Of a stretch of DNA of 64,000 bases, positions 41,064-52,405 are shown piece by piece; within the stretch, counting starts at the first letter, position 1, and each line of letters opens with the position of its first letter. Source of the DNA: Teredinibacter turnerae T7901. Its GTDB lineage: Bacteria > Pseudomonadota > Gammaproteobacteria > Pseudomonadales > Cellvibrionaceae. Made by a program: the position numbers and the translations under genes. The notes below the pieces were generated by a model. The model had not been told where the DNA came from and did not search any database. It saw only the letters and a list, made by a program, of their open reading frames with translations. The stretch lies in assembly GCF_000023025.1 (NCBI RefSeq), contig NC_012997.1, positions 3,841,125 through 3,905,124 on the forward strand. Reading direction: 5' to 3'.

Positions 41064-41651
41064 ATGCAACCCATCATAGGTGATATACATCTTTTCGGCT
41101 TTAACTTCGGACAGGAAGGCTGGGCACTTTGCCAGGGACAGCTCATGGCCATCCAGGATAACACCGCACTGTATTCGCTAATCGGCACCCAATACGGTGG
41201 CGATGGCCGTTCGAGCTTCGGTATTCCCGACTTGCGAGGTCGTGTGCCACTGGGAACAGGAAATCCCCCCGGCGGCAGCCAATGGCCGATGGGGCGCGAT
41301 GCAGGCGCGGAAACCTGTGTCATCCAGGAATCGCAAATGCCGACCCACAGCCATCCAGCTAACTTTAGCTCACAATCGAGTCTCTTCGGTACTACCGAGC
41401 CCGCAGACCTGACAACGCCAGAAACAGGCGCCGTACTGGCCAATGTAGTTGCCGGTGGCACGGGAGCTGATAAACCCGAAAAAATTTACACGGTTACTAC
41501 CGCAAACCCGGTGACCCTCGGCGGCCTGGATGTCACCGGAGAAGTGCAAGTGGGTAACGCAGGTAATTCCAGTTTATTTAGCCTGTTGCAACCCTGCCTG
41601 GCGGTCAGCTACGCAATCGCCACCGAGGGTGTGTACCCGAATAGAAGCTAG
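41064..41651 (+). CDS. Phage tail collar domain protein (MdpB-like)
   Basis: A 195-residue protein with an N-terminal phage tail Collar domain: MQPIIGDIHLFGFNFGQEGW, then CQGQLMAIQDNTALYSLIGTQYG, and FGIPDLRGRVPLG. It is followed by a variable Thr/Gly-rich region and a C-terminal strand (LLQPCLAVSYAIATEG). This matches the microcystin-dependent-protein group of chromosomal, non-phage collar proteins found in many bacteria. No other phage genes are present. The TAG stop lies inside the terminal repeat of a MITE-like element, so the original 3' end may have been altered by the insertion. GAGG is 7 nt before the ATG. Function is unknown. A cell-surface or fibre role is inferred. Confidence 0.88.
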   Translation: MQPIIGDIHLFGFNFGQEGWALCQGQLMAIQDNTALYSLIGTQYGGDGRSSFGIPDLRGRVPLGTGNPPGGSQWPMGRDAGAETCVIQESQMPTHSHPANFSSQSSLFGTTEPADLTTPETGAVLANVVAGGTGADKPEKIYTVTTANPVTLGGLDVTGEVQVGNAGNSSLFSLLQPCLAVSYAIATEGVYPNRS

Positions 41652-42273: not shown

Positions 42274-43089
42274 GTGTCTCAATTTCACTTCATTTCAGGT
42301 CTGCCACGATCAGGCTCGACCCTGCTCGCAGGCCTATTGCGACAAAATCCCCGATTCCACGCTGCGATGAGCAGCCCTGTCTCAAATTTAATGAATTCCA
42401 TCCTGGAACAAACAGGCGCAGGCAGCGAATTTTATTCTTTTTTCAATGCTGATAAGCGCAAGCGCTTGTGTAAAAGTCTATTTGAGGCTTACTACGCCGA
42501 AGAGGAAAATCCGCCGATTATTTTTGATACCAGTCGTGCCTGGACTGCGCGTCTGCACCAACTGGTCGAACTATTCGGTGACTTTAAAGTGATTTGTTGC
42601 GTGCGTAACCCAGCTTGGATTATGGACAGTTTCGAACGTATCCATCGTAAGAATCCTTTTGATTACAGCCGCATGTTCTCCGCTGGCAATCGCGCCACTG
42701 TCTACTCGCGCTGCGAAACGCTCGCCAATTCAAACGGCGCATTGGGCGGAGCCTGGACTGCGCTGAAGGAAGCCTACTACGGCGATTTTTCCGATCGTTT
42801 ACTTCTCATCGACTATCAACTGCTCACCCAGCATCCCAGCCGCACGCTGGAGCTGCTATACCAGTTTATCGGCGAAGATTTTTATCAGCACGATTTTGAC
42901 AATGTGGAATACGAAGCAACCGAATTCGATCAGCAACTTGGGGTGCGCGACTTACATACGGTGCAGCGCAAAGTGGAGTTTTCGCCCAGGCGCAGCCTGT
43001 TACCGCCGGATCTGTTTAACAAATACCAGGATATGGCCTTTTGGCAGGATACGACCGGCACCGCCGCCAGCACTATCGCCCCTCGATAA
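42274..43089 (+). CDS. PAPS-dependent sulfotransferase family protein
   Basis: A 271-residue cytosolic sulfotransferase-like protein. The phosphosulfate-binding loop is FISGLPRSGSTLLAGLL at residues 5-21. The 3'-phosphate motif is VICCVRNPAWIMDSFERI near residue 110. These are the two diagnostic elements of enzymes that transfer sulfate from PAPS. Start is GTG with a weak AAGG box. The acceptor is unknown. Placement between a collar protein and a giant secreted protein suggests that it sulfates a component of that surface structure or a glycan on it. It lies downstream of the MITE, so it may have a separate promoter. Confidence 0.85.
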   Translation: MSQFHFISGLPRSGSTLLAGLLRQNPRFHAAMSSPVSNLMNSILEQTGAGSEFYSFFNADKRKRLCKSLFEAYYAEEENPPIIFDTSRAWTARLHQLVELFGDFKVICCVRNPAWIMDSFERIHRKNPFDYSRMFSAGNRATVYSRCETLANSNGALGGAWTALKEAYYGDFSDRLLLIDYQLLTQHPSRTLELLYQFIGEDFYQHDFDNVEYEATEFDQQLGVRDLHTVQRKVEFSPRRSLLPPDLFNKYQDMAFWQDTTGTAASTIAPR

Positions 43090-43135: not shown

Positions 43136-46100
43136 ATGAAACATTTTCTCGCACAAGGAATTACCTCGATACTTCTCCCGTTCACCGCCTACGCGGCAAC
43201 AGGCAGCTACGCCAACACCTATCAGCGCAATGCGCGGGCACAAACACCACAACAGGCAGCCTTGCTGTGGTCAAACGACAAGGCTCACTCTGTCGCTGCC
43301 CCTTATTCGCCAGAGACGTTGAACACAAACGCGCCAGTGTTAATGCACGGCAACCCGGTGCGAGAGCTGGTGATCATTGACTCTGCGGTGCAGGACAAGC
43401 AGACCTTATTCAACGGTATCGCGCCGGGAGTGGCTGTCGCAGAGATTGTTCCTGGCGAGGATGGCGTAACACAGCTCGTGGAGATTCTCGCTAAGTACCA
43501 ACACTTGGACGCAGTACATCTTTTCAGCCACGGCAACAGCGGCAATTTACAGCTTGCGGGTCGGCAAATTCCAGCGACAGAACTGCGCGAAAAAACTGAA
43601 TTATTCGCAACGTTGGAAAATGCGGTAAGTCCAGGTGGAGACTTTTTGTTGTACGGCTGTAATTTTGCTGCGAACGCAGAGGGTGAGGATTTTCTCGACC
43701 TGGTGAGTCATACAACGGGTCTGGACACTGCAGCTTCCGCAGACCTCACCGGCAACACGGCGAATGACGGTGACTGGGACCTTGAAATAGCCCGCGGAGA
43801 CATTACCGCGAAAACGCCTTTCAGTGAGCAGGCGCTGCGAGATTTCTCCGGCGTGCTGGCTCCACAAACATACACAGCGCAGCAGCTGTATAACGACAAC
43901 ACACCATCGAGTTACTACTACCAGACAGTGATATCAACGGGCGATGGTTATTTTGATGCTACCAACCTCGGCGGCAGAGTCTCAGCCGTGGACGGTGGTG
44001 GCAGTTACGGATACCTCTATGCATCGACAGGCTCCGGGCTCTACGGTAAAACCCTACAAATTGCCGCCGACGGTACCAATGTAGGTACCTTCGAACTCAA
44101 TACCTTACAGCTTTCCGTGGGTGAATTGGGCTGCACCGCATCGGACATTTCGGTAAACGTCACTATTGAAGGTTATTACCCCAACAACTCTTCAGCCGGG
44201 ACCCAGAATGTAACCGTGGCAACGCCTACCACCTTTTGCGGCTACGGGGACGTGGATACCGTCGATGTTTCCTCAACCTTTGGCGCGGGCAAGGCGTTAT
44301 CGCGGTTTGTGGTTAAGTATCAGGGCACAGCCCCCAACAACCGCTATTTCCTTATCGCCTCGTTCACCGTCGATAACCTGCAAGCCCCTGACGCAACTGC
44401 ACCGACGCTAACCGCTGTCACCGGGGTACCCTCGCCCACAACGGACTCGACGCCAGACTACACCTTCAGCACGGATGAAGCGGGAACCCTGACTGTCGGC
44501 GGTTCTTGCGGCAGCTCTGACGAAGGGGCAATAAGCTCCGGGTCCAACACTATTACCTTGACCCAAACCGACAACAGCACCCCCTTGGCAGATGGCACTT
44601 ACAGCGACTGCACGGTCACGGTTCAGGATTCTTACGGCAACAGCAGTACTCCGCTGGCCATCAACTCTTTTACAGTCGATGCGAGTGCGCCGGTGTTGAG
44701 CGAGGTGACACCAGTCGTCAGCCCAACCAACGACGCCACGCCCAACGTGACCTTTTCGACGAACGAAGCAGGCACCCTCTCCGTCGGCGGTTTATGCGGC
44801 ACCAGTACATCGACAACGATCAGCGCCACGGGCAATCATACAATTACGCTAACACAAGCGGATAACAGCACACCGCTAACCGATTCGACCTACACGAACT
44901 GCACGCTAACAGTGACAGATAGCGCAGGTAACGCCAGCAGTCCGTTGGCACTCAGCACGTTTATTGTTGATACCACTGCACCCGCCAACCCTTCCACGCC
45001 AGATATGCAGGCTGGCAGTGACAGCGGCAGCTCGAACACCGATAACACCACAGCCGATACCACACCGAGCTTCACGGGTACCAGCGAGGCCAGCGCAACA
45101 ATCACTCTGTCTTCCAACGTAGATGGCATTGTTGGGAGTACAACCGCGGATGGCAGCGGCAATTGGACGGTGACCGCGTCAACGCTCAGCGCCGGTGCGC
45201 ATCAGATTTCCGCGACGGCAACTGATCAGGCGACAAATACTTCCGGTTCCTCAACCAGTTTAAGCATCCTTATCGACACCCTCGCGCCATCAGCGCCATC
45301 CACCGCGGATCTCGCCGCTGCGAGCGATCTCGGCACCTCGAGTTCGGACGATCTGACGTCGAACACAACACCACAATTCACCGGCACCGCTGAAGCAAAC
45401 GGGCTGCTGAGCCTGCAGTCGTCTCTGGATGGCAGTATTGGCTCGGCAACCGTTGACGGCAGCGGCAACTGGACGGTTACCGCATCAACCCTGTCTCAAG
45501 GGGCGCACACAATAACCAGCACCGTGACAGATATTGCAGGCAATACATCGGCGGCATCGGCAGGTTTGAGTGTCACTATCGATACCACCGCACCGGCTGT
45601 TACTTCGGTGTCCGTGCCAGTCAACAATACCTATGGCTTGAGCGACACGCTTAGCTTCGTGGTTAATCTGGACGACACGGTTGTGGTCAACACCTCAGGC
45701 GGCACGCCGCGGCTGGCAATGACCATTGGCGCAGCTACACGTTACGCCAGCTATGTTTCCGGCTCGGGTACCTCGTCACTGGTTTTTTCTTACTCTGTTG
45801 AGTCTGGCCTTAACGACAGCGATGGCATTTCCTTAAATGGTTCGCTGGACTTGAACAGCGGCGCCATAACCGACAGCGCGGGCAACAGTATCAGCACCAC
45901 GCTCGCCAGTGTAGGCAGCTTGACTTCGGTGCTGGTCGACACCCTAGCACCCTCGCTCACGGAGTTTACTGCCGTGGCGAGTGCCACCAATGCAACAACG
46001 CCAAGTGTGGTGGTCAATGTTTCGGAAGACGGAACCCTCGCGTTTTCCGGCAGTTGTGGCAGCCTGGATGCGGGCAGTGTGAGCGCGGGCAATGTCAGCT

Positions 46101-49100
46101 TGCGGCTCACCCAGCCGGATAACACCACCAGCCTCACTGAAGGCACTTATAGCGATTGTGCAATTACGGCTACCGACGCGGGGGGCAATACCAGCCCGCC
46201 GCTATCGTTGAGCAGCTTTACAGTTGATCGAACCTCGCCAACGCTCACAGAATTCACGGCAGTAACAACACTTGGCAACGACAGCTCACCAGCGTTCGTA
46301 GTCGCGGCGTCCGAAGTCGGCAGCCTCGCGATCGGTGGGAGTTGTGGCCTGGGCAGCAGTCCAGCTATGAGTGTAGGCAACAACAGTGTCACGCTGCTCA
46401 ATTCATCCGCGTCCGCCGATTTAGCGGACGGTACCTACAGCGATTGTACGGCAGTACTCACCGACGCCGCAGGCAATGCCAGCAGCCCGCTGAGTCTCAG
46501 CAGCTTCACTATCGACACCAGTGCGCCGACATTGGCCGTGGTGACCGCGGTGCCGAGTCTGGGTACGGACTCAACCCCGAGCCTCACCTTTTCCAGCTCA
46601 GAAGCGGGCACACTTGCTGTCGGCGGCAGTTGTGGCAGCAGCGACATAGGCACGATAAGTAGTGGCAACACCCCTATCACCCTCACCGCCACCAACAACA
46701 GCAGCAGTCTGAGCGATGGAACATACGCCGACTGTACTCTGACTGTGACTGATAGTGCCGGCAACAGCAGTACCCCACTGGCGCTGGCACAGTTCACCAT
46801 CGACACCACACCGCCATCTATCGCCCAGGCAACCGCCGTAGCAACACCCACCAATGATGCAACACCGGATGTGGCTTTACTGTTGAGTGAAGCGGGTATT
46901 CTGGCGGTGAATGGTAGTTGTGGCAGCGCGGCGGAAGGCAGCATAGGCGCAGGTAGCCAAACCATCACGCTGACCCAGACAGACAACAGCAGCGCGCTGG
47001 CAGATGGCACCTACAGCGACTGTACCGTGAGCCTTACCGACCCGGCAGGCAACAGCAGCGCGCCCGCCGCCCTATCTGCGTTCCAGGTAGACACCCAGGC
47101 GCCTACCTTAACGGAAGCAACTGCAGTCAGCACACCCACGGCGGACACAACGCCCAGCCTGACGCTGGCGGTGAACGAAACCAGCACCCTGCAGATCACG
47201 GGCAGTTGTGCCCTCGGCAGTACTAGCGCACTGATCACCGGCAATAACAGCGTAACTCTGGCAACGCTGAGCGACGCCACCTACAGTGACTGCGTTGCTC
47301 AGGCAACCGACAGCGCCGGTAATTTAAGTACCCCGGTTACCTTGTCGAGCTTTACTATCGACAGTGCTGGCCCGGTACTGGCCGAAACCAGCGCCGTAAA
47401 CACTCCGACCTCTGACAGTTCGCCCAGCGTGACCTTTACCAGCAGTGAAGCCGGTGTACTAACCATTACTGGTAACTGCGGCAGCCCCGATACTGGCTCG
47501 GTCGCCAGCGGCAGTGTGACAATTACTCTCACCCAACTCGACGGGGTAACGCCATTGGCTGATGGCAGTTACAGCAATTGTGCAGTCACTGTGACTGACA
47601 ACCTCGGCAACGCGAGTACGCCACTCCTGTTAAGCAGCTTCGAGGTGGATACCGCAGCGCCAGTTGTCACCGAGTCTGCCGCTGTAACCAGCCCGAACCG
47701 CGATGCCACCCCAACGCTGAGCATCACTTTGTCAGAAGCGGGCAGCATTACTGTCGGCGGTGACTGTGGCAGTTCGGACGAGGGCCCGCTGGCCAGCGGC
47801 ACTCACACCATCACCCTGACTCAACCCGACAATATCAACGCTCTTGCTGACGGTACTTACAGCAATTGCACTATTAGCGTTAGTGACGGCGCCGGAAACC
47901 TGAGCACTCAGCTCAGCTTGAGTGCGTTTACCATAGATGCAACTGCGCCAGTACTCGCCACCAATGCAGGCCTGACCCTGGATGAAGGCGCCAGTGCCCC
48001 CATTAGCGCCAGCCTGCTTTCGGCGACTGATCAGACCACTGCCGTAGCGGATATTCTGATTTCTCTGAGCAGTAGCCCTACGAATGGAAATCTGCGTCGC
48101 AACGGTGTCGCACTTAGCGCCGGTAGCAGCTTTTATCAAACGGAAATAACCCAAGGAAACATTCAATACAGCCACGACGGCGGCGAAAGCACCGGCGACA
48201 GCTTCAGCTTTACGCTGACCGATGCACTGGATAACACCAGCAGTCCACAAACGTTTGCGATCACGGTAACGCCACAGAACGACGCCCCAGACACCACAGC
48301 CGATACCGCCACAACCAATGAGGATACCCCGGTAACCGTGGACGTACTGGCCAACGATGTTGACCCGGACGATACCATTAACGCCGCCAGCGTATTGATT
48401 GTTGCGGCTGCCAGTAACGGTCAGGCAAGCGTTAATACAGCCAACGGTGATATCACCTACACACCGAACGCAGACTTTAACGGCGTGGATAGCTTCAGCT
48501 ATACCGTGCAGGATACAACCGGTGACACCTCTGCCTCGACCCTGGTGTCGATCACAATTAGCGCGGTAAACGACGCACCTGTCGCTGTCGCTGACGCGGT
48601 GTCTACCGACATCAACACCCCTGTCACGATTGATGTGGCAGCGAATGATTCGGATATTGATGTGGGCGACAGTCTGGATACCGCGAGCCTGAGCGTCGTA
48701 AATGCGCCAGCGCACGGCACCGCGCAAGTTGTTAACGGCAGTATTAGCTATACGCCGACCACGGATTATCTGGGCAACGACAGCTTCACTTACACCATTG
48801 ACGACACTAATGGCCTCAGTTCCAACGCGGCAACGGTCACCATAAGTGTTATCGACCCCAACAGCTCACCGAGTGCCGCAAACGACTCTGCCACCACGAA
48901 TGAAGATACACCGGTAACCATCGCCGTCCTCAGCAACGATTCTGATCCAGACGGATCATTGGTCCCTGGCAGCGTCGCAATCGCCACGCCGCCAATGCAC
49001 GGCACAGCGAGTGTGACCAGCAACGGCACGGTGAACTACACGCCCGCCAGCAACTACTTCGGCAGCGATAGCTTCACCTACACTGTCGCCGATGATGATG

Positions 49101-52100
49101 GCGCCGTATCTGCAGCAGCAACAGTTTCCATAACAGTCAACAGCGTGAACGACGCACCACAGGCCAACGACGACACTGTGCGACTGCTGGAGGATGCAAG
49201 CCTCACCATCAATGTGCTCGGTAACGACAGTGATGTGGACGGCACCCTGGCCCCTGCGACCCTGGTAATTGTGACCAACGCAGCATCCGGCATTGCCGGG
49301 GTGGACAACGGCCAAGTGGTGTACACGCCGTTGGATGACTATGTTGGCAGCGATACGTTCACGTACACCGTGGCCGATAACGCGGGCACCGTGTCCAACA
49401 CGGCAACTGTAACGCTCACCGTTGACCCGGTTAACGACGCGCCTAAAGCCGCTGACGATAACTTCACTATCCTAGCCGCAAGTGCCAGCGATCTGGTGGT
49501 GCTGGAAAACGACGCCGATATCGATGGCAGCCTGGACGCCGCAAGTATTACTGTGGTGGCTGCGCCCGCTCAGGGCACGCTGACTAACAACAACGATGGC
49601 ACATTGCGCTACACCCCCAGTGCGGGTATTGCGCCGCTTGATGGCGACAGCTTCAGCTACACCGTGTTGGACAACGATGGCGAAAGCTCAAACACCGCAA
49701 CCGTTACCCTCACGTTTGTACCTGGCTCAACACTGGTGATTACCGGCGCTCCGGCGGAGGACATCATCGAAGGTCAGGCGTTTTCCTTCACACCTACCGT
49801 GATGGACGCTGACAGCCTGTTCACGCTCACCTTCAGTGTGCAGAACCTGCCCGCCTGGATGGCATTCGACAGCGCCACCGGAAGCTTATCCGGCACACCT
49901 ACCCGCGACGACGTCGGCGCCTATGACAACATCACTCTGAGTGTGTCTGACGGCGTTAACACCAGTGTGCTCAGCGCGTTTAGTGTGGAGGTGTTCGCTG
50001 ATGTCGATACGGACAACGACACCATCAGCGACTACCAGGAGCAGCTCGACGGTACCGACCCGAACGACCCGCTGGATTATCTCGACTTGACGCCGCCAGA
50101 CCTGCTCGCTCCGGCAGATATTATTGTGGATGCGACCGGTCTGTTCACCCGGGTAACCCTGGCGCAGCTGCTGTCAATGGCTGCGGATGCAACCCAAGCA
50201 GAGCTCGACGAGGCGGTTGCTGCGCTGGTAACCGACAATGTGAATGGCGATGGCTGCTGCAACGCTGCTCCCCAAGGCATCACTGACGGTCGCTATCAGC
50301 TTCGCCCAGGTGTCCATGCCACCCATTGGACCGCCGAAGACTTTATGGGCAACAGCAGCCAGGTTACCCAAACTGTGTTTGTGCGACCACTGGTGAGCCT
50401 GAGTAAAGATCAGACTTCGGTTGAAGGTGCAACCGCAAGCTTTCAGGTGCTGTTGAACGGCCCGGCGATCAGCTATCCGTTTGAAGTGCCTCTAATGATC
50501 GATACCTCGTCTACAGCCACAGAGACAGATTACGAGCCAGTGCCAACCAGTGTTGTATTTAATGAGGGGCAAACCGAGGTTTCTGTCGCGATCCGCACCC
50601 TGGCAGACACCACGACTGAAAACGATGAAGTACTGCGCGTGCAATTGGATGATCGCACCAGCGCAGCTGAAGACTTGAGCGATGGCTTCGACGCAGATAT
50701 TTACGATATCAACGCCGGTGCGAAAACCACATTCGCACTCACCATTGTTGAACGCAACGTGCCGCCCAAGCTGACACTTACCCTGCGTCAAGCGGGTAAA
50801 CAGACCATCCAGGTAACGCCCAATGGTGGCGAAGTTACGGTCACAAGCGCCGTTGTTGACCCAAATCCAAACGATACCCACAGTATCGACTGGAGCGGCA
50901 CTGACAGCCTCCTGAACGACACCAGCGCTATACCAACGGTACTGACGTTCTCCCCCGCAGACCTCGCCAGCGGCCGCTACAAGGTAAAAGCCAAAGCCAC
51001 GGATAGCGCAAATGGCAGCAACACCGCCGTCCTGCACTTTGTGGTTGTGCAGAGCTTGCCCCAGCTATTGGCAACGGACGACACCGACAACGACGGTATT
51101 GACGATGAAACCGAAGGTACCGCCGACAGCGATGACGATGGCATCGCCGATTATCTCGATAACATTACTGCGACCAATGTGCTTCCCGAACGAGCGCGCC
51201 AGACCGACTCGTTCCTGATCGAGTGCGATCCCGGAGTCCGCTGCCGCCTCGGCGAATTTTCCATCCAAACGCCGAGTAGCGGTGCGCGATTGCTGGAAGA
51301 TGAGCGATCTGCCCTTAACGACTTCAACGAGGACACTCACTTCAACAGCTCGGGTATTTTTGACTTTGAGCTGGCGGACCTGCCCGAAGCCGGGCGCAGC
51401 ACGTCGGTGGTGATTCCGCAAATCGCGCCAATTCCCGCCAACGCGTTGTACCGTAAATTTCAAAATGGCGAGTGGCGTACCTTTATCGAGGATACCAACA
51501 ACCTGTTGCACTCGACCGCAGGCACCGAGGGCTTCTGCCCTCCACCCGGTGACAGCGCCTGGCAGCCAGGGCTTACCGAAGGTCACTGGTGTGTGCAGCT
51601 CACCATTGAAGATGGTGGCCCCAACGATGCCGATGGCGAGGTGAACGGCAGCGTTTCCGATCCAGGCGCGGTGGCAACACAAAAACGCCGTACTATCAAA
51701 ACTGGCGGTGGTGCCACTAGCGGTGTTTTGATGCTTCTAATTGCCCTGCTGGCGATCGGAAGACGCACACAAGTCAGCCGTAAACTGCCATTGGCCGCAC
51801 TGCTGGCTGGCGGCTTGACTGGAACAGCTCCTGCCCCAGCACAAGCCTACGAACCGGAAACGTTTTTTGTGAGCGCAACCGCCCTTACGAGCGAATCACA
51901 GCACAGCGCCGGCGACTACGCGTCCACTATGACTGCCAACGGGGTGGAAACAACGGTACTGAACTACGATGCCAAGTCCAACGGCTACCACATCAATCTA
52001 GGCCACACCTTCACCCCTTTTGTTTCATCCATGTTTGGCTACTTGGATCTGGGCAAGGCAGACACAGAACTAAGCTTCCTGGACGAGGATGATGCGATTG

Positions 52101-52405
52101 TATCCAAGGCGTTGGAGGAGTCTTACCCTCACCTGGGCAAAGGTGTTACCACCAATGCCCGATTCCACTACGACCTGCACTCTGCATTTACAATTTATGC
52201 AGATGCAGGACTTTATTACTGGCGCTCAAAAATTCACGTTGGCCAAAGCGATATAGAAGCGGAACAGAAGGGGCTGGACCCATGGGGTGGCTTGGGAATT
52301 CAGTTAAATTATCAAGCTGTTTCGGTAAATGTGAGTTACCAATATTTTAAATTGGACGAAACCAGCGCAACAACGCTGGGAATAGGCCTCGGGTATCAGT
52401 TCTAA
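43136..52405 (+). CDS. Giant DUF4347/Ig-like/VCBS surface protein with internal sorting signal and C-terminal barrel
   Basis: A 3089-residue secreted protein. In order: a signal peptide (1-22); DUF4347 (about 76-235), with HLFSHGNSGNLQL and LLYGCNFA; and a discoidin/beta region to about 420. Then come Ig-like repeats (about 425-1605), nine of which carry a Cys pair (VGGSCGSS...TYSDCTV). Next are a cadherin-like module (about 1605-1720), five VCBS/tandem-95 repeats (NDAP...NEDTPVT) to about 2195, and a putative Ig domain. A thrombospondin-3-like Asp-rich stretch (DVDTDNDTISD), a Calx-beta-like domain, and a choice-of-anchor-U-like Cys domain (about 2690-2850) follow. Then comes a GlyGly-CTERM-like tail (GGG at 2857-2859, hydrophobic stretch, RR at 2876-2877). 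It is followed directly by a signal-peptide-like segment ending APAQA at 2904 and a 185-residue outer-membrane barrel ending GLGYQF. Calcium-binding adhesin is inferred. Confidence 0.85.
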   Translation: MKHFLAQGITSILLPFTAYAATGSYANTYQRNARAQTPQQAALLWSNDKAHSVAAPYSPETLNTNAPVLMHGNPVRELVIIDSAVQDKQTLFNGIAPGVAVAEIVPGEDGVTQLVEILAKYQHLDAVHLFSHGNSGNLQLAGRQIPATELREKTELFATLENAVSPGGDFLLYGCNFAANAEGEDFLDLVSHTTGLDTAASADLTGNTANDGDWDLEIARGDITAKTPFSEQALRDFSGVLAPQTYTAQQLYNDNTPSSYYYQTVISTGDGYFDATNLGGRVSAVDGGGSYGYLYASTGSGLYGKTLQIAADGTNVGTFELNTLQLSVGELGCTASDISVNVTIEGYYPNNSSAGTQNVTVATPTTFCGYGDVDTVDVSSTFGAGKALSRFVVKYQGTAPNNRYFLIASFTVDNLQAPDATAPTLTAVTGVPSPTTDSTPDYTFSTDEAGTLTVGGSCGSSDEGAISSGSNTITLTQTDNSTPLADGTYSDCTVTVQDSYGNSSTPLAINSFTVDASAPVLSEVTPVVSPTNDATPNVTFSTNEAGTLSVGGLCGTSTSTTISATGNHTITLTQADNSTPLTDSTYTNCTLTVTDSAGNASSPLALSTFIVDTTAPANPSTPDMQAGSDSGSSNTDNTTADTTPSFTGTSEASATITLSSNVDGIVGSTTADGSGNWTVTASTLSAGAHQISATATDQATNTSGSSTSLSILIDTLAPSAPSTADLAAASDLGTSSSDDLTSNTTPQFTGTAEANGLLSLQSSLDGSIGSATVDGSGNWTVTASTLSQGAHTITSTVTDIAGNTSAASAGLSVTIDTTAPAVTSVSVPVNNTYGLSDTLSFVVNLDDTVVVNTSGGTPRLAMTIGAATRYASYVSGSGTSSLVFSYSVESGLNDSDGISLNGSLDLNSGAITDSAGNSISTTLASVGSLTSVLVDTLAPSLTEFTAVASATNATTPSVVVNVSEDGTLAFSGSCGSLDAGSVSAGNVSLRLTQPDNTTSLTEGTYSDCAITATDAGGNTSPPLSLSSFTVDRTSPTLTEFTAVTTLGNDSSPAFVVAASEVGSLAIGGSCGLGSSPAMSVGNNSVTLLNSSASADLADGTYSDCTAVLTDAAGNASSPLSLSSFTIDTSAPTLAVVTAVPSLGTDSTPSLTFSSSEAGTLAVGGSCGSSDIGTISSGNTPITLTATNNSSSLSDGTYADCTLTVTDSAGNSSTPLALAQFTIDTTPPSIAQATAVATPTNDATPDVALLLSEAGILAVNGSCGSAAEGSIGAGSQTITLTQTDNSSALADGTYSDCTVSLTDPAGNSSAPAALSAFQVDTQAPTLTEATAVSTPTADTTPSLTLAVNETSTLQITGSCALGSTSALITGNNSVTLATLSDATYSDCVAQATDSAGNLSTPVTLSSFTIDSAGPVLAETSAVNTPTSDSSPSVTFTSSEAGVLTITGNCGSPDTGSVASGSVTITLTQLDGVTPLADGSYSNCAVTVTDNLGNASTPLLLSSFEVDTAAPVVTESAAVTSPNRDATPTLSITLSEAGSITVGGDCGSSDEGPLASGTHTITLTQPDNINALADGTYSNCTISVSDGAGNLSTQLSLSAFTIDATAPVLATNAGLTLDEGASAPISASLLSATDQTTAVADILISLSSSPTNGNLRRNGVALSAGSSFYQTEITQGNIQYSHDGGESTGDSFSFTLTDALDNTSSPQTFAITVTPQNDAPDTTADTATTNEDTPVTVDVLANDVDPDDTINAASVLIVAAASNGQASVNTANGDITYTPNADFNGVDSFSYTVQDTTGDTSASTLVSITISAVNDAPVAVADAVSTDINTPVTIDVAANDSDIDVGDSLDTASLSVVNAPAHGTAQVVNGSISYTPTTDYLGNDSFTYTIDDTNGLSSNAATVTISVIDPNSSPSAANDSATTNEDTPVTIAVLSNDSDPDGSLVPGSVAIATPPMHGTASVTSNGTVNYTPASNYFGSDSFTYTVADDDGAVSAAATVSITVNSVNDAPQANDDTVRLLEDASLTINVLGNDSDVDGTLAPATLVIVTNAASGIAGVDNGQVVYTPLDDYVGSDTFTYTVADNAGTVSNTATVTLTVDPVNDAPKAADDNFTILAASASDLVVLENDADIDGSLDAASITVVAAPAQGTLTNNNDGTLRYTPSAGIAPLDGDSFSYTVLDNDGESSNTATVTLTFVPGSTLVITGAPAEDIIEGQAFSFTPTVMDADSLFTLTFSVQNLPAWMAFDSATGSLSGTPTRDDVGAYDNITLSVSDGVNTSVLSAFSVEVFADVDTDNDTISDYQEQLDGTDPNDPLDYLDLTPPDLLAPADIIVDATGLFTRVTLAQLLSMAADATQAELDEAVAALVTDNVNGDGCCNAAPQGITDGRYQLRPGVHATHWTAEDFMGNSSQVTQTVFVRPLVSLSKDQTSVEGATASFQVLLNGPAISYPFEVPLMIDTSSTATETDYEPVPTSVVFNEGQTEVSVAIRTLADTTTENDEVLRVQLDDRTSAAEDLSDGFDADIYDINAGAKTTFALTIVERNVPPKLTLTLRQAGKQTIQVTPNGGEVTVTSAVVDPNPNDTHSIDWSGTDSLLNDTSAIPTVLTFSPADLASGRYKVKAKATDSANGSNTAVLHFVVVQSLPQLLATDDTDNDGIDDETEGTADSDDDGIADYLDNITATNVLPERARQTDSFLIECDPGVRCRLGEFSIQTPSSGARLLEDERSALNDFNEDTHFNSSGIFDFELADLPEAGRSTSVVIPQIAPIPANALYRKFQNGEWRTFIEDTNNLLHSTAGTEGFCPPPGDSAWQPGLTEGHWCVQLTIEDGGPNDADGEVNGSVSDPGAVATQKRRTIKTGGGATSGVLMLLIALLAIGRRTQVSRKLPLAALLAGGLTGTAPAPAQAYEPETFFVSATALTSESQHSAGDYASTMTANGVETTVLNYDAKSNGYHINLGHTFTPFVSSMFGYLDLGKADTELSFLDEDDAIVSKALEESYPHLGKGVTTNARFHYDLHSAFTIYADAGLYYWRSKIHVGQSDIEAEQKGLDPWGGLGIQLNYQAVSVNVSYQYFKLDETSATTLGIGLGYQF

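Follow-up and report, generated by a model that had tools for sequence, protein, structure and literature searches.

The window analyzed here is a 64,000-nucleotide stretch of the genome of Teredinibacter turnerae T7901, and it carries a single giant open frame that appears to join an adhesin to an OmpA-type beta-barrel. The parts of this gene and two of its upstream neighbors lie as follows, in window positions; split pairs are relatives in which adhesin and barrel are encoded by two genes:

41064..41651, + strand: gene with a phage-tail-collar domain, upstream of the adhesin gene; the split pairs L105 and L106 likewise have collar genes ahead of them
42274..43089, + strand: sulfotransferase-family gene, upstream of the adhesin gene; its counterpart beside the split pair L106 (genome G117) is 70% identical
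43136..52405, + strand: whole precursor open reading frame, 3089 aa in a single frame, stop included
43136..43198, + strand: putative N-terminal signal peptide, residues ~1-21, a signal-like sequence assigned by eye
43367..43858, + strand: DUF4347 (PF14252), residues 78-241, 172.7 bits
~44600..50000, + strand: tandem Ig-like and cadherin-like repeats (Big_13, Big_9, Cadherin_4/5) forming the adhesin body, bounds approximate
51350..51676, + strand: choice-of-anchor U domain (NF041766), residues 2739-2847, 39.8 bits against a cut-off of 32
51704..51766, + strand: internal GlyGly-CTERM (TIGR03501) of GGG, hydrophobic helix and RR, residues 2857-2877; GG is the predicted rhombosortase site
51761..51784, + strand: short basic loop RRTQVSRK, residues 2876-2883, predicted to be cytoplasmic from its sequence and from comparison with relatives
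51785..51847, + strand: putative second, internal signal peptide LPLAALLAGGLTGTAPAPAQA, residues 2884-2904, with a predicted signal peptidase I cut after Ala2904
51848..52402, + strand: mature OmpA-type beta-barrel, residues 2905-3089, 185 aa, from Pfam, profile and an AlphaFold model

The original prediction, made from the letters of the DNA, had described a junction consisting of GGG at residues 2857-2859, a hydrophobic helix, RR at 2876-2877 and APAQA at 2900-2904, and all of these match letter for letter. It had further described a 185-residue C-terminal barrel ending in Phe; residues 2905-3089 indeed end in GLGYQF and are of OmpA type. By sequence and hydropathy, residues 2884-2904 form a second hydrophobic segment besides the signal peptide and the tail, and the protein runs on for 212 residues after the internal GlyGly-CTERM match, so that the tail does not stand at the extreme C-terminus. 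We judged the second signal by its anatomy, its conservation and the split-gene relatives. At the other end of the chain, the SHG (131) and YGC (173) motifs of DUF4347 look somewhat like the paired His and Cys of clan CD cysteine peptidases, and this N-terminal part of the adhesin is a possible protease domain.

The second part of the protein matches both PF13505 (OMP_b-brl, 41.7 bits) and PF01389 (OmpA_membrane, 35.5 bits) over their cut-offs. An AlphaFold model of the mature segment built with 36 sequences is a small barrel with a mean pLDDT of 89, its best matches among solved structures are OmpA (TM-score 0.68 on the query), and a PDB profile search with 45 relatives also ranks OmpA first. 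DSSP divides the model into 11 strand pieces, and by reference to OmpA we infer eight membrane strands. The first strand of the model starts four residues past the predicted cut. The genome of the window encodes five such fused genes, in which adhesin and barrel share one frame; three have a plain barrel and two a barrel followed by the OmpA peptidoglycan-binding domain.

The GlyGly-CTERM model TIGR03501 (cut-off 15.5 bits) gave a mixed answer at the junction. In two contexts the predicted signal passed: searching the genome gave 16.6 bits, and a 56-aa segment reached 16.3 bits. A 98-aa segment, however, scored 14.2 bits, under the cut-off, and no match to the full-length protein was listed at E≤10. 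Matches at E≤10 also turned up in 11 of 14 control genomes, one of which had a match over the cut-off. Even at this lax threshold the model finds only 38 of 55 junctions, and MYXO-CTERM matches 23 of them. The score is thus marginal when taken alone, and the case therefore rests on recurrence. Within the genus, 33 GlyGly-CTERM matches were found and the loci of 30 were read. Twenty-one of these 30 are terminal, with 0-16 residues beyond the match, at least two of them (L235 and L245) resembling PEP-CTERM or chance matches. Eight of the nine internal matches carry a barrel, with 206-348 residues beyond. The internal match at L230, with 85 residues beyond and neither GG nor barrel, was set aside as a likely multi-helix false match. 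Among the three matches left unread, G004:2882018 is the junction of the fused gene L052.

The arrangement is far from unique to the window gene. Its genome, a single contig, contains five giant frames with the same order of parts, the window gene included, and a profile of their junction-plus-barrel stretches was searched in 144 genomes of the family. Some match was obtained in 79 of the 144, many of the matches being ordinary barrels; from 60 fetched stretches, fused genes were read in at least 37 of the 144 genomes and at least 12 of 32 genera. A search of 390 genomes of the order added fused genes in 19 more genomes from seven other families, and one was also read in G045, which belongs to a further family. 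When the window C-terminus was used to scan titled genome records, 73 loci were recovered, of which 44 are fused, six are split and 23 have no barrel by script; among these last, the fused junction of L190 is cut short where its contig stops, L206 and L214 are truncated, and neither L182 nor L192 has a GG tail. Fused genes in the titled records include representatives from Vibrio, Photobacterium, Shewanella, Rheinheimera, Ferrimonas, Motilimonas and Colwellia. A sequencing artefact or missing stop can be ruled out, since dozens of genomes share the arrangement and one single-contig genome has it in five genes. Two loci have peculiarities of their own. In the draft genome G164 the frame of L104 is broken shortly upstream of an otherwise typical junction, and the second part of L143 appears by eye to have been rearranged, its barrel being preceded by an Ig-like stretch and by a C-terminal stretch of OmpA type; the L143 junction lies further upstream, with other stretches between junction and barrel.

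The residues at the two predicted cleavage sites are largely retained in relatives. In an alignment of 45 rows, 42 have alanine immediately ahead of the predicted signal peptidase cut, against a mean column identity of 30%; the barrel glycines in the same alignment are kept in 44-45 of 45. The GG columns are kept in 45/45 and 41/43, counts on which we do not rely: trimming had put a GG-type motif at the head of each row, so that they are partly set by construction. An independent sample comes from the titled fused rows, which were fetched mainly via the choice-of-anchor U stretch and not via GG: with L143 left out, all 43 show a GG-type motif before an uncharged stretch, as compared with 695 of 2000 stretches drawn at random from the adhesin body of the window gene. 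Among 117 fused rows, which contain near-copies and are not independent, a script placed two uncharged hydrophobic segments in 115. The loops between them have a net charge of at least +2 in 113 of 115 and total 457 basic versus 32 acidic residues, figures that are partly by construction since the script accepted only uncharged segments separated by one or more basic residues. Of the 115 rows, 105 have a GG-type motif according to the same script, and the remaining ten show one by eye; the script favors alanine at the cut site, and its count there was set aside. Having read the junction segments of the relatives, we can confirm that the signal-like character of residues 2857-2904 is conserved, as the original prediction required. 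Exceptions do occur: L141 and L068 have a single helix between GG motif and barrel, and L098 has a helix and a very short second stretch. Lacking a clear second helix, the barrel of these three would be expected to end up on the wrong side of the membrane. At shorter evolutionary distance, four orthologue pairs between the window genome and G004 show no indels across the junction, and pooled dN/dS is 0.36 for the junction (198 codons), 0.077 upstream and 0.136 for the barrel part. At the level of codons, then, the junction is constrained, loosely, and evolves faster than its flanks.

The search for homologues in which the two parts are separate adjacent genes, proposed along with the original prediction, proved informative: in twelve relatives adhesin and barrel are encoded by two neighboring genes, some of them overlapping, that meet at the predicted junction. 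Six are in the titled loci and the others in G136, G117, G031, G026, G512 and G275. The downstream gene starts with its own signal-like stretch followed by the barrel, and in eight of the twelve pairs the genes overlap by 1-14 bases. The adhesin frames of G136 and G117 close with a GG tail, and 14 bases past each stop, behind an AAGGA run, comes the ATG of the barrel gene; these two pairs (L105 and L106, respectively) are preceded by collar-domain and sulfotransferase genes, as in the window (Pfam), and the collar, sulfotransferase and adhesin genes may act together. Adhesin and barrel genes overlap by four bases (ATGA) in G031 and G026 and are adjacent without overlap in G512 and G275, and in the six titled loci the barrel starts, which were chosen mechanically, lie 1-14 bases ahead of the point where the adhesin stop codon ends. 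A clear GG precedes the helix at the adhesin end in seven of the twelve pairs (L105, L106, L133, L135, L185, L203 and L209); the other five (L107, L108, L180, L210 and L212) have an SG-type or displaced motif and no clear GG. The adhesin tails of L107 (G031) and L108 (G026) read SGHSG or SGHSS; both genomes pass the rhombosortase cut-off.

A quick tree of 130 barrels included 117 from fused genes, 11 from split pairs and two standing alone, proportions that reflect a sample gathered with fused queries; the split row L180 was left out because its barrel was missed by the local profile at the length required. The split label changes seven times on this tree, at least four of the changes being forced by well-supported branches. 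As judged from these sequences, fusion or fission has happened several times, and the one-gene and two-gene forms interchange. This would make sense if the fused chain, as we propose, ended up as two proteins anyway.

The machinery that would be needed to process a GlyGly-CTERM signal is encoded in the same genome, which has a rhombosortase at C1:23753-24217, scoring 145.8 bits against a cut-off of 84, and a type II secretin, with 578 bits against 351. The rhombosortase cut-off was passed by none of the 14 control genomes. Across the family, 107 of 144 genomes have a rhombosortase over the cut-off, including 35 of the 37 carriers of fused genes (Fisher p 0.0008), and across the order it is found in 27 of 29 carriers versus 5 of 17 genomes not known as carriers (Fisher p 1e-5), where both tests ignore kinship and a non-carrier is a genome in which a fused gene was not seen among the matches listed. 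The 29 carriers comprise 20 with a fused gene read, two with split pairs and seven recognized by profile match alone, and the 17-genome baseline leaves out G045, itself a carrier. The carriers without an over-cut-off rhombosortase are G079 (no match) and G158 (71.5 bits) in the family and G457 (no match) and G045 (60.4 bits) in the order. A rhombosortase-type gene is the direct neighbor of the fused gene in three genomes, each from a different family: in G354 (L223) its mechanically chosen frame starts before the fused gene has ended, in G486 (L222) it lies 108 bases further on in the same orientation, and in G045 (L215) the below-cut-off rhomboid is convergent with the fused gene. The adjoining proteins of G486 and G354 show GxSGxxHG, which we take to be the rhombosortase active-site pattern.

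Taken together, the anatomy of the junction, its recurrence, the split-gene relatives and the rhombosortase and type II secretin of the genome, each visible in sequence, suggest that the window gene probably encodes a secretory precursor of two proteins, a giant adhesin and an OmpA-type barrel. The idea of a surface polyprotein had been raised with the original prediction, and it gains support from relatives that keep the signal-like segments and from adjacent-gene versions that split at the predicted boundary. We envisage the following course of events, in which the topology, both cuts and the C-terminal tagging are deduced from the order of the parts. The N-terminal signal would direct the chain into Sec, and the internal GlyGly-CTERM helix would then act as a stop-transfer segment, with GG outside and RR inside. 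Given this orientation, the next hydrophobic stretch would point the opposite way and could work as a signal peptide, so that the barrel leaves the cytoplasm; the basic loop and this stretch would thus constitute the second signal peptide, re-opening Sec for export of the barrel. Rhombosortase cleavage at GG would free an adhesin of ~2.86 kilo-residues, whose C-terminus would be modified before type II export to the surface, and signal peptidase I would cut after Ala2904 to free the OmpA-type barrel for the outer membrane. The remaining two-helix hairpin would presumably be discarded. One consequence of such a one-chain arrangement is that it would fix a 1:1 output of the adhesin and a dedicated outer membrane partner. 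A role for the barrel in docking or anchoring the adhesin, the "anchor or port" function suggested originally, is a tentative proposal in which we place slightly less than even confidence.

Other readings of the junction must be weighed against this one. The most obvious is that the chain stays uncut, both hydrophobic segments persisting as a transmembrane hairpin so that adhesin and barrel form one working protein. The single open frame and the relaxed constraint on the junction relative to its flanks are compatible with such a protein. However, with the first strand beginning only four residues past the predicted cut, an uncut chain would tie an outer membrane barrel to the inner membrane, and neither the near-invariance of the cut-site alanine (42/45) nor the division of twelve two-gene relatives at this very point would be expected. 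We therefore regard an uncut chain as unlikely. The alternative raised alongside the original prediction, a recent gene fusion with both signals surviving as relics, has fared worse and appears very improbable: adjacent-gene versions do show that fusion or fission occurs, but the fused forms are diverse, spread across many families and far-diverged paralogues with several events between them, they make up 117 of the 130 tree rows (albeit in a sample collected with fused queries), and their cut-site alanine has been kept.

Alternatively, the barrel might be made separately by translation initiating inside the fused gene. In 14 of 53 fused genes an in-frame start codon and a Shine-Dalgarno-like run are found 14-60 residues past GG, as compared with 4.2 of 53 expected from random windows of the same genes. 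The expectation rises to 8.3 of 53, however, when the protein is held constant and synonymous codons are redrawn, indicating that much of the excess follows from the residues of the helix. The window gene itself has no ATG in residues 2871-2916 and no Shine-Dalgarno-like run before the TTG and GTG codons there, and for these reasons we consider internal initiation quite improbable as the general explanation. As a separate observation, several loci of one genus, g2 (L061, L064, L067, L073, L075, L080, L083-L085 and others), have start codons near the end of the first helix with Shine-Dalgarno-like runs ahead of them, and these could permit some separate barrel synthesis. Finally, the C-terminal barrel might itself carry the adhesin to the surface. 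Classical autotransporters have a large passenger ahead of a C-terminal barrel, a layout that the window protein shares. Pfam and the fold nevertheless point to a small, 185-residue OmpA-type barrel and not to a translocator barrel of the autotransporter or Omp85 kind found in type V systems, a helix pair and a signal peptidase-like site separate the two parts, and split genes with separate signals exist, all of which makes autotransport extremely improbable.

If the two-product precursor is correct, its implications extend beyond a single gene. Sortase-like tails are treated as C-terminal, a position assumed by models and annotation alike, and here one is predicted to work in mid-chain. OmpA-type barrels become candidate outer membrane partners for rhombosortase-sorted adhesins, a proposal that can be tested, and there would be a bacterial example of one protein pair whose genes either overlap or are fully fused. 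There is also a warning for annotation: a giant "OmpA family" protein may in many cases turn out to be two. More broadly, it seems likely, though we say so a shade less firmly than for the window gene, that these genes represent a widespread class of surface polyproteins, each an adhesin and its dedicated partner joined by a stop-transfer/re-start hairpin and separated by two membrane proteases, with repeated shifts between one gene and two and, in some lineages, an adjoining gene for the protease.

How does this compare with known systems? The production of two proteins from one bacterial chain by cutting at an internal signal has a precedent in Bradyrhizobium fbcH, where signal peptidase acts on a single precursor to yield cytochromes b and c1. 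The window reading shares this principle with fbcH, which differs in having one cut, products that are subunits of an inner membrane enzyme and no sorting tail. In the type IX system of Bacteroidota, as described in passages of PMC9143113, surface proteins with a C-terminal sorting domain bind outer membrane barrels in the SprB/SprF and PG1035/PorP pairs, and SprB and SprF are co-expressed, apparently at 1:1. The pairing resembles the one proposed for the window gene and serves only as a working analogy; those pairs use another secretion system and signal and are made as separate proteins. Ordinary OmpA is translated from a start codon of its own and opens with an N-terminal signal, whereas the window barrel, despite sharing the profile and fold of the family (and, in some second parts, the OmpA peptidoglycan-binding domain), sits behind an adhesin.

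The closest parallel is VesB of V. cholerae, which, according to passages of PMC6219818, is exported by Sec, held by its GlyGly-CTERM helix and cut by rhombosortase at GG, whereupon the new end receives a glycerophosphoethanolamine-containing group and the protein is exported by the type II system to the cell surface. The tail is transferable, as stated in a passage of PMC13393428. The window gene has in common with this system the glycine motif, the hydrophobic helix, the basic end and a signal-like N-terminus, and its genome likewise holds a rhombosortase and a type II secretin. As described in relevant passages of Haft and Varghese (PMC3237569), GlyGly-CTERM stands at the extreme C-terminus, where its position may aid recognition, and no further transmembrane segment was found between signal peptide and tail in known proteins of this type. 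No internal GlyGly-CTERM is described in passages of PMC3237569, PMC13393428, PMC6219818, PMC11389362 and PMC5300114, or in the titles and abstract openings of a survey of the rhombosortase, GlyGly-CTERM, OmpA, choice-of-anchor and polyprotein literature that was mostly open-access, with preprints outside its scope. Thus, whereas known GlyGly-CTERM signals end their proteins, that of the window gene is followed by another signal-like stretch and then by 185 residues of barrel. Both signal and barrel belong to known kinds, and what is new is their use in the middle of a chain.
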